A stretch of DNA of 64,000 nucleotides from Polynucleobacter meluiroseus (lineage in GTDB: Bacteria; Pseudomonadota; Gammaproteobacteria; Burkholderiales; Burkholderiaceae). The notes below the pieces were generated by a model that saw only the letters and a list, made by a program, of their open reading frames with translations, was not told the DNA's origin and did no database searches. How positions within the stretch are numbered: position 1 is the first letter of the stretch; each line of letters opens with the position of its first letter. The position numbers and the translations under genes were made by a program. Below, piece after piece: positions 27,513 to 55,384 of this stretch. The stretch covers positions 18,911 through 82,910 of the forward strand of contig CAMDKY010000003.1 of the NCBI GenBank assembly GCA_945901245.1. Direction: 5' to 3'.

Positions 27513-27576
27513 CTGCAATTTAGGTGACAATTGTGAATACCGTTTTTTTACTGTTTTTATGCAGAGTGAGTTAGAT

Positions 27577-28593
27577 ATGCCCTCCTATTGGTCCAGTAGC
27601 CCGTATCGCCACCTTATCGTTAGCCCCGATCGCCAGCTGATCGTAACGGATGATTTTTTGCGTACCTATTTGGATCGACCCGAGCTTGCCTTGATTCCGG
27701 AGTCATGCCAAGCGGAACAGGCCCTTCATCAGCGCTTGGTCGACAACCCCAAAGCAGATATCAGTGAGGCAGAAATTGCACAAATGCAGGATGCTGATAT
27801 TCAGGTGAACTACGGCATTTGGCTCCGCTACCGCAGCAAGCTGCTGAAGGCGCCGTCATTAGAGGCCTTCTACATGAGCCTGTTTGAAGGTGAGGGGGTT
27901 GATGTGCCACCCCTATTTATTAGTCAACTGACTCAGGTCTTTATTCAGCATATATTGGGTGAGGATGCGCCGCCACTCGAGCTCCGCATGGCTGAACTCT
28001 TTTTTAGAACCCAGGCAATCTCGATTCAGGAGGGCGGCGTCGTAATGGCTGCTGATGCCCAAACCATTGAGCAAAGCTCGAAAGCCGATGAATTTGGTAG
28101 CATCGTCGACCTACTGAAGCAAGGCACTATGGCTTCGCAATCGGTTGATTTGGATGTATTGCATGAAGAAAATGCCACCAACTATTGGACGCGCGATGAG
28201 GATTTTGATTTTGCTGTTCAGCTCAACTACAGCCAGCCCACCACCCGGAGTTTTTGCACTGTGCTGCAAAAGTGGATTAATCACTTTTTAGGTGTCGATG
28301 TCAAAATTAAGCCCCTAAAAGAAGTCAGCGATCCGAACTGGGTATGGCATGTTGGATTAGATGCCGCCTCGACTGAAATTTTGAATGCGCTGTACAACAA
28401 AGAGCCTGTGGATGAATCGGATATGGCTCGCTTACTCTGTTTGTTCCGCTTGGAGTTCATCAATTCGACCGATACCCGTCCGGAGTTTGCTGGACGTAAT
28501 GTCTATATGGCTATTGCAATGAACGAGAAGAACGAGCTCAAGTTAAAGCCGCAAAACGTCCTTTTCAACCTACCCCTGGCAAAAGCATCTTAG
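27577..28593 (+). CDS. DUF6352-like protein of unknown function
   Basis: A 338-residue cytoplasmic protein. The start MPSYWSSSPYRHLIVSPDRQ, followed by LIVTDDFLRTYLDRPEL, resembles the betaproteobacterial DUF6352 family as I remember it. The middle contains EGEGVDVPPLFISQLTQVF and FFRTQAISIQEG; the C-terminal part DPNWVWHVGLDAASTEILNA is also typical. No catalytic motif, signal peptide or membrane segment is visible. ATG 27577 is preferred over 27559 because it matches the family start and has GAGTGAG eight bases upstream. Confidence 0.72.
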   Translation: MPSYWSSSPYRHLIVSPDRQLIVTDDFLRTYLDRPELALIPESCQAEQALHQRLVDNPKADISEAEIAQMQDADIQVNYGIWLRYRSKLLKAPSLEAFYMSLFEGEGVDVPPLFISQLTQVFIQHILGEDAPPLELRMAELFFRTQAISIQEGGVVMAADAQTIEQSSKADEFGSIVDLLKQGTMASQSVDLDVLHEENATNYWTRDEDFDFAVQLNYSQPTTRSFCTVLQKWINHFLGVDVKIKPLKEVSDPNWVWHVGLDAASTEILNALYNKEPVDESDMARLLCLFRLEFINSTDTRPEFAGRNVYMAIAMNEKNELKLKPQNVLFNLPLAKAS

Positions 28594-28595
28594 TT

Positions 28596-28625
28596 TAGGC
28601 ATACAACTCTGAATTCAGGTATGAT
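28596..28625 (+). promoter_or_regulatory. Promoter candidate of the 55-residue ORF (TAGGCA, 18 bases, TATGAT)
   Basis: TATGAT matches the -10 consensus at five of six positions and TAGGCA matches TTGACA at four of six with an 18-base spacer. Transcription would start near 28632, about 40 bases before the small ORF. Confidence 0.5.
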
Positions 28626-28645
28626 CTAAGTATTAACCCTTAGAT
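28624..28645. promoter_or_regulatory. Palindrome ATCTAAG / CTTAGAT over the expected start site
   Basis: A perfect seven-base inverted repeat with an eight-base spacer begins at the end of the -10 element and covers the expected transcription start. A bound repressor there would block transcription. Alternatively it is a 5' hairpin that stabilises the mRNA. Confidence 0.45.
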
Positions 28646-28670
28646 ATTTACCCTTAAATCGGAGCATTAT

Positions 28671-28838
28671 ATGAGCCAGACCATTGCAAGCCCAGCAGTA
28701 AAAATTGAATTAAACACATCATTTTTATCAGAAATGATCAATAAAATCAGTAATATAGCTAGAATCATCCATGAGTCTTCCGTCGAAGCAAAAGAGCAAT
28801 ACAAGAAGCACTCTGTTTTAGGTGGCGGCTGGGAATAA
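28671..28838 (+). CDS. 55-residue small protein of unknown function
   Basis: The ORF runs ATG to TAA with GGAG eight bases upstream. The product is mostly polar and helical: a stretch FLSEMINKISNIARIIH followed by ESSVEAKEQYKKHSVL, ending in GGGWE. There is no signal peptide, membrane segment or cysteine. I do not recognise a family. Support for a real gene comes from its own promoter, a palindrome over the start site, a good ribosome binding site and a strong terminator 42 bases after the stop. Its low GC relative to flanking genes would fit either a constrained small protein or later acquisition. Confidence 0.68.
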   Translation: MSQTIASPAVKIELNTSFLSEMINKISNIARIIHESSVEAKEQYKKHSVLGGGWE

Positions 28839-28880
28839 GTAGCAAATTGGTCTAATCTGGGCTAATTGGAAGGTTCTACG

Positions 28881-28920
28881 GAAGGGGTGAGTCAGCTTGG
28901 CTCACCCCTTCTTCTTTTCC
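28881..28920 (+). terminator. Strong rho-independent terminator after the 55-residue ORF
   Basis: GAAGGGGTGAG and CTCACCCCTTC form a perfect 11-base stem with a nine-base loop, followed by TTCTTTTCC. It closes the small-ORF unit before the Smr gene. Confidence 0.9.
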
Positions 28921-28942
28921 GCTTTAAGCCCGCTTCCTTCGA

Positions 28943-28948
28943 TATAGT
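28943..28948 (+). promoter_or_regulatory. -10-like element TATAGT before the Smr gene
   Basis: TATAGT ends six bases before the ATG at 28955. With the upstream terminator in place the Smr gene needs its own promoter, and no Shine-Dalgarno sequence is visible. Confidence 0.4.
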
Positions 28949-28954
28949 GCACAC

Positions 28955-29413
28955 ATGCCTAAACTTCAGCGAATGCTGCCTGCAGAGTGCCTTGAGTGCG
29001 GCAATCCACGCTACTTGCTCGGAAATTGCTTGAATTGCGGCAGTACGGATTTGCCGCAGGCCCTAACGGATACGGTAGTGCTCAATTTAGAGGCAGGCGG
29101 GCCATCAGCCGAAGCAGCCTTAGAGCGCCTAACGCTGCATGTGCGCGCCGCCAGTGAAGCAGGTATTCGGGCTTTAATCGTGATCCATGGCTACGGCTCG
29201 AGTGGCGCAGGCGGAAAAATTAAGTGGCTTGTGCGGGATGCTCTGGAAAACAACTTTTTCTCCGACCGAGTAGACGAGTACTATTTTGGAGAAGATCTCT
29301 CCGCGGGAAGCGCTGGATACCATGCTGTTATTAAGCGCCGTTCTTCTTTAAAGCAGCACTTAAGTCAGTTTAAGATAGGCAATGCTGGCATGACTGTACT
29401 TCTGATGCACTAA
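28955..29413 (+). CDS. Small zinc-ribbon/Smr-like domain protein
   Basis: A 152-residue protein with an N-terminal zinc-ribbon-like pattern (C12, C15, C25, C28) and then a domain resembling Smr (MutS2 C-terminal): VVLNLEAGGPSAEAALERL and the glycine loop IVIHGYGSSGAGGKIK near H79. The LDxH motif of active Smr nucleases is replaced by LNLE at residues 43-46, so nuclease activity is doubtful. It could bind nucleic acid only. It is followed after 17 bases by the DUF883 gene. Confidence 0.7.
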   Translation: MPKLQRMLPAECLECGNPRYLLGNCLNCGSTDLPQALTDTVVLNLEAGGPSAEAALERLTLHVRAASEAGIRALIVIHGYGSSGAGGKIKWLVRDALENNFFSDRVDEYYFGEDLSAGSAGYHAVIKRRSSLKQHLSQFKIGNAGMTVLLMH

Positions 29414-55170: not shown

Positions 55171-55210
55171 CTAACTGATTATTAGATGGACGAAACCGGG
55201 TACCGGTTTT

Positions 55211-55298
55211 GATGACACTCCCCACGCCAGCATTATCTGGATCGGGTAATAGGGTCTTTCTCAGCGCCACCAATTACGGAGGGCACCCCTGTTTCATC
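55211..55298 (-). promoter_or_regulatory. TPP riboswitch (THI element) of the thiC operon
   Basis: Read on the minus strand, the aptamer has AGGGGTGCCC, GGCGCTGAGA, AGACCCT, ACCCGATCCAGATAATGC and TGGCGTGGGGAGTG in the right order, the conserved core of the thi box. GATG...ACA at the start pairs with TGT-CATC at the end as P1. After it, AAACCGG-TAC-CCGGTTT (55193-55209) forms a perfect hairpin without a U-run, and AGGAG of thiC follows 19 bases later, which points to control of translation rather than termination. High TPP should lower thiC-thiE expression. Confidence 0.93.
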
Positions 55299-55384
55299 CT
55301 TGCAAGCATTTAACCACGAAACGCTGACGGGTATGCTGACTCAAATCAATAATGGTTAATTCATGTGTTCTGACGTGATTCTGC

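Follow-up and report, generated by a model that had tools for sequence, protein, structure and literature searches.

Among freshwater bacteria with small genomes, Polynucleobacter species belong to the most abundant. The stretch of DNA analysed here (64,000 nucleotides from Polynucleobacter meluiroseus, hereafter the window) contains, between positions 28596 and 28920, a compact region which raises the question of whether it is a gene for a regulated small protein, as a sequence-only reading had proposed, or the source of a non-coding RNA, as the same reading allowed, and what such a protein might do. The reading frame in this region codes for a protein and has evolved under purifying selection. 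It has a promoter and, in one of two groups of relatives, a terminator of its own, and that this previously undescribed gene is real is near certain. Its regulation and function are discussed here with the strength that the evidence gives to each.

Parts and conservation of the small gene

The small-protein gene (smORF) occupies positions 28671 to 28838 of the forward strand, on which all the other parts of the unit also lie, and its 55 codons are translated into MSQTIASPAVKIELNTSFLSEMINKISNIARIIHESSVEAKEQYKKHSVLGGGWE, ending with LGGGWE. A ribosome binding site, GGAG, is found at 28661-28664, 6 nt before the ATG. The sigma-70-like promoter (28596-28625) consists of a -35-like TAGGCA at 28596-28601 and, after 18 nt, a -10 TATGAT at 28620-28625, and the predicted +1 is spanned by an operator-like perfect palindrome, ATCTAAG-TATTAACC-CTTAGAT, at 28624-28645 (arms 28624-28630 and 28639-28645, loop of 8). 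These are the promoter pair, inverted repeat, ribosome binding site and 55-residue frame ending in GGGWE that had been read from the sequence, and each was located. The promoter is much better backed by conservation than by consensus: the pair agrees with 9 of 12 consensus positions and is no commoner than expected by chance alone (1 found against 1.9 expected in shuffles), while the -10 is kept as TATGAT, TATTAT or TATACT in all 18 orthologues, in which the palindrome core and the ribosome binding site are conserved as well. An intrinsic terminator with a T-rich tail lies at 28880-28919. Here the earlier reading was right about the element and too modest about its stem, given as 11 bases: the arms at 28881-28894 and 28898-28911 match over 14 nt at 93%, or 15 pairs counting 28880-28912, and the fold (-26.5 kcal/mol, z -5.6) is equalled by no shuffle. 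Across the eight relatives that have this terminator, 5 of the 15 pairs are changed on both sides (0-2 in slid controls), and 94.8% of the cells are paired, much more than in the slid controls.

A peptide search recovered smORF orthologues without stops in 18 of 186 Polynucleobacter genomes, about one tenth of the species, and they are always preceded by a DUF6352 gene, which in the window lies immediately upstream (27559-28593, forward strand; Pfam PF19879, 3.2e-65) and on which a literature search found no paper. By sequence and context the orthologues split into two groups. In group A (8 genomes including that of the window) the order is DUF6352 gene, smORF, terminator and Smr-domain gene, and in group B (10 genomes) it is DUF6352 gene, smORF and a DsbA/FrnE-like gene (PF01323, 6.7e-28), with no terminator at the end of smORF, and the unit runs on into the DsbA-like gene. 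In the other Polynucleobacter genomes inspected, the DUF6352 gene has different neighbours and no smORF-like frame was seen near it. Stops and frameshifts combined with kept hairpins, which would have refuted the proposed small protein, were looked for in the 18 orthologues and none was found. Within groups, dN/dS is 0.10 (A) and 0.16 (B), falling to 0.05 and 0.08 over the last 22 codons, and the variable columns are distributed over codon positions 1, 2 and 3 as 11/8/33 in group A and 12/11/35 in group B. Open frames, low dN/dS and third-position variation thus settle that smORF is a coding gene under purifying selection and support the proposed small protein. Since it is the protein that is conserved, they lend no support to a purely non-coding RNA.

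None of the family libraries searched contains the gene. Its protein had no match in Pfam, NCBIfam or PHROGs, nor in phages, plasmids and viral contigs; a PDB profile search with the smORF family gave no usable relative (best E 0.4); and outside Polynucleobacter no smORF was found in a family sample of 299 genomes spanning 25 genera. A scan of 84,980 species matched only records of Burkholderiaceae/Betaproteobacteria, several of which were the same genomes. Two weak short-profile matches in other genera (E 0.01-0.02) were not accepted.

Downstream, a block TTCGGTATAGTGC (TTCGATATAGTGC in the window, 28939-28957) is kept just before the ATG of the Smr-domain gene (28955-29413) in 8/8 group-A loci, which suggests a promoter of that gene whose transcript has at most a very short leader.

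A PhaR-type site at the -35 in relatives and a predicted amphipathic product

When the 18 upstream regions are aligned, three kept blocks appear: TGCAnTGCA at the -35, the -10, and the palindrome at the predicted +1. The first is also found upstream of the phasin genes in these genomes and resembles YTKNTGCRNYGCANMAR, the published PhaR palindrome of Ralstonia eutropha (PMC12849132). Repression of phasin genes by PhaR, and its release when polyhydroxybutyrate (PHB) is made, are established (PMC4873508); that work used lacZ fusions in E. coli, with and without PhaR, for the phasins of Herbaspirillum. PhaR (PF07879) is encoded in 15/15 genomes tested, the window's included, and the phaR genes carry the same type of site in their own promoter regions; in most of its orthologues smORF is like this autoregulated unit in having the TGCAnTGCA palindrome in its promoter region, and differs from it in that phaR is a regulator gene whose site is close to the start codon.

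The published palindrome is matched in all ten group-B smORF promoters with 0-3 mismatches (0-1 in eight of them) and, in a weaker version with 2 mismatches, in 7/8 group-A promoters, compared with a background in which, of 581 stretches each 110 bp long, none matched at one mismatch or fewer and 12 at 2 mismatches. A scoring matrix that drew on phasin and phaR promoters only gave 12.2-20.2 bits for the 110-bp upstream stretches of group B, where the 99th percentile of the background is 11.7, and 8.7-9.8 bits for those of group A, where its 95th percentile is 7.9. At the exact expected place, group A scores 6.1-9.5 bits and the window genome -3.8. The group-A sites are weak, and one alone would not convince. 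The promoter in the window has no PhaR-type site: the best match has 5 mismatches and lies elsewhere, none with 2 or fewer occurs within 28400-28700, and at the position where relatives carry the site, 26 nt before the -10, a decayed remnant is left (28594-28610).

The spacing is also informative. From the start of the PhaR-type site to the -10 there are 26 nt in 6/6 phasin promoters and in nine of the ten group-B smORF promoters, with 25 in the tenth; the smORF promoter of G096 also has 26 nt, and six group-A promoters have 24. An exact 15-base pattern occurs in the complete genome G063 at four places, two of them in phasin promoters, one in the smORF promoter and one upstream of a gene with an SLT (transglycosylase) domain; because this pattern was drawn up with both promoter sets in view, a fairer test is given by the published motif and by the independent matrix. 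Moreover, YTKNTGCRNYGCANMAR is met at one mismatch in 23-48 places per genome, compared with 7-14 for a reversed control, and therefore a match alone does not prove regulation. Taken as a whole, site sequence and spacing make it probable that PhaR controls smORF in the relatives. A conserved PhaR-type site, TGTTGCAnTGCAATA, was seen in both groups about 50-65 nt before the start of a transglycosylase SLT-domain gene (L139:1501-2390; also L134, L135, L140, L144 and L148), which is divergent from an aldehyde dehydrogenase-like gene.

The N-terminus of the smORF protein is variable, and the C-terminus, YKK-x2-[IV]LGGGWE, is nearly invariant (in the window protein, EQYKKHSVLGGGWE). AlphaFold2, given 11 sequences, predicts, at a mean pLDDT of 74, a single helix over residues 8-50 and a loose tail. 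This helix is amphipathic, with a hydrophobic moment of 0.45-0.61 that does not stand out from shuffled sequences in every orthologue, and its mean hydrophobicity of 0.14-0.30 is not transmembrane-like. In phasins, binding to the granule is proposed to rest with amphipathic helices (review PMC5658603). smORF resembles the phasins (PhaP, PF09361 Phasin_2) in its helical, amphipathic product, in group B also in its PhaR-type palindrome, which lies at the -35 with the phasin spacing of 26 nt to the -10, and in group A in forming a single-gene unit. It differs from them in size, with 55-59 residues against about 180-200, and in its extra palindrome at +1, and the window genome has no PhaR site. 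No phasin model of Pfam was matched by the protein of the window (E up to 1) or by a group-B orthologue and three proteins of the short family described below (E up to 10).

The best reading of these data is that the smORF product is a small helix protein active at surfaces and that its production in the ancestor went along with that of phasins while PHB was being made; it may bind the PHB granule. The explanation that we prefer, though with middling confidence, is that an amphipathic-helix gene was ancestrally shut by PhaR in the manner of phasin genes, with a second regulator at +1 and a product acting on a hydrophobic surface, and that the PhaR site has decayed in the window. According to this explanation PhaR, bound over the -35, would have shut the ancestral smORF promoter and would still shut that of most living relatives, and PHB chains would pull it off the DNA and open the promoter, as the site sequence, the spacing and the established biology of PhaR lead us to infer. 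The helix would settle on a hydrophobic surface, either the PHB granule or a membrane, and the invariant YKKHxILGGGWE tail may hold a partner. If the granule link is true, smORF would be a granule-surface protein far smaller than the known phasins.

The +1 palindrome and a family of short helix proteins

In the palindrome at +1 the centre TAT[AT]AACCC is retained (with one TAC) while the arms change together, being ATCTAAG/CTTAGAT in group A and ATTAGG/CCTAAT in G054. In group A only, its 3' half is duplicated 14 bp downstream, giving in the window a tandem 14-bp repeat, TATTAACCCTTAGA and TATTTACCCTTAAA, at 28631-28658. The motif has a single match in the 64-kb window, at 28627, and seven in 341 kb of other loci, of which six are smORF promoters and about one is stray. 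A literature search on GGGTTAACCC gave no bacterial operator among the top matches.

Weak profile matches in other Polynucleobacter genomes proved to be genuine-looking tiny genes of 30-38 aa with the pattern MKK..W.AWYEARLAYAKRY..HRLGS. With a profile made from smORF and this short family, members were found in 36 of the 398 family genomes; of these 36, 34 are Polynucleobacter, and some have several copies. A profile-profile comparison (hhalign) of smORF with the short family gave, for the helix core, a probability of 82.6% and an E of 9.7e-6. Both have the single-helix core xxAWxEARxxYxKR in the same register. The short proteins, which are absent from Pfam and NCBIfam, differ in having no N-terminal extension and in ending with LGS instead of LGGGWE, and their genes have neighbours different from those of smORF. 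Like smORF, 9 of the 27 short-family genes tested are preceded by the +1 palindrome (TWAGG..TWAACCCTWA), which lies 29-67 nt before the start of the gene or of its two-gene unit, in at least five separate loci (G166; the set G063/G157/G101/G129/G068; G012; G047; G060). Many others (12/27) have instead, without the palindrome, Pho-box-like GTCAT repeats, which we take to resemble PhoB sites. Loose pattern counts of the palindrome show no genome-wide excess over control, and the link holds only among the small-helix genes. The earlier expectation that the small protein is regulated thus gains from two candidate sites, the +1 palindrome common to other small genes and the PhaR-type site present in most orthologues. 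In addition, the +1 operator picks out a set of tiny genes that have it in common, and their regulator can be sought directly.

Two further arrangements may be recorded. Short AWYEAR genes (L203-L224) lie between MgtC-like and low-molecular-weight phosphatase/arsenate-reductase-like genes and have the upstream Pho-box-like repeats GTCATAAAAGCG..TTCACCTTGTCAT. At L242:1259-2121, on the reverse strand, two consecutive tiny frames (53 and 33 aa; the former without a Pfam match) and a GNAT-acetyltransferase-like gene form one unit behind the same +1 palindrome.

These observations also feed the strongest rival, in which smORF encodes a small regulatory protein linked to stress or nutrients and not to PHB. 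Control would then lie mainly with the +1 operator, the set of tiny AWxEAR-helix proteins sharing it would act on a common cytoplasmic target, and the PhaR-type site would be incidental or an addition made in some lineages. The promoter of the window keeps the palindrome and not the PhaR site, the palindrome recurs before members of a family that the profile comparison joins to smORF, and other members stand under Pho-box-like repeats beside MgtC-like and phosphatase-like genes; against it, the PhaR-type site of all ten group-B orthologues sits at phasin geometry and is conserved while the surrounding spacer diverges, and we regard this rival as possible but doubtful. Equally tentative is a broader proposal, namely that Polynucleobacter has a class of unannotated AWxEAR helix proteins of 30-60 residues, distributed over PHB/PhaR, phosphate-like and TTAGGGTTAACCCTAA-operator regulons and serving as mini-phasins or surface adaptors, of which the window gene would be the PHB branch, having switched regulon by loss of its PhaR site.

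To return to the preferred explanation of an ancestrally PhaR-controlled surface protein, a second repressor or activator would act on the +1 palindrome. Because the PhaR site has decayed in the species of the window, control has probably shifted there to the +1 operator, tandem-duplicated in group A, which would be the only one likely to act. Provided that the granule link is true, this would show cleanly, in nature, how a gene passes from one regulon to another. The links to PHB storage and to the wider set of tiny helix genes are the least certain parts of the account.

Less probable explanations

That the smORF product is an accessory subunit of the adjoining DsbA/FrnE-like protein in group B is suggested by the start of the DsbA-like gene directly at the smORF stop codon in 10/10 group-B loci, but it is improbable, as smORF in group A stands alone and has its own terminator before the Smr-domain gene. 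Still less likely is a small membrane toxin of a type I toxin-antitoxin system, or the precursor of a secreted or modified peptide, with which the small size and the conserved C-terminal motif would agree: the hydrophobicity of the helix is below transmembrane grade, an antisense promoter and an RNA family match were looked for at the locus and neither was found, among the immediate neighbours examined no gene for a maturation enzyme or exporter was recognised, and the gene is fixed in chromosomal synteny behind the DUF6352 gene and absent from phages and plasmids. A regulatory RNA with an incidental or minor reading frame, to which the compact promoter-to-terminator unit of about 290 nt and its whole-transcript fold (75.5 kcal/mol, z -2.4) might point, is very unlikely in view of the third-position-biased change and low dN/dS, of the terminator hairpin, which contributes 26.5 of the 75.5 kcal/mol and departs most strongly from shuffles, and of group B, in which that terminator is missing and the unit continues into the DsbA-like gene.

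At the Rfam gathering threshold, only tRNAs and a TPP riboswitch were matched in the 64-kb window; the riboswitch lies at 55202-55300 on the reverse strand, above its gathering score.
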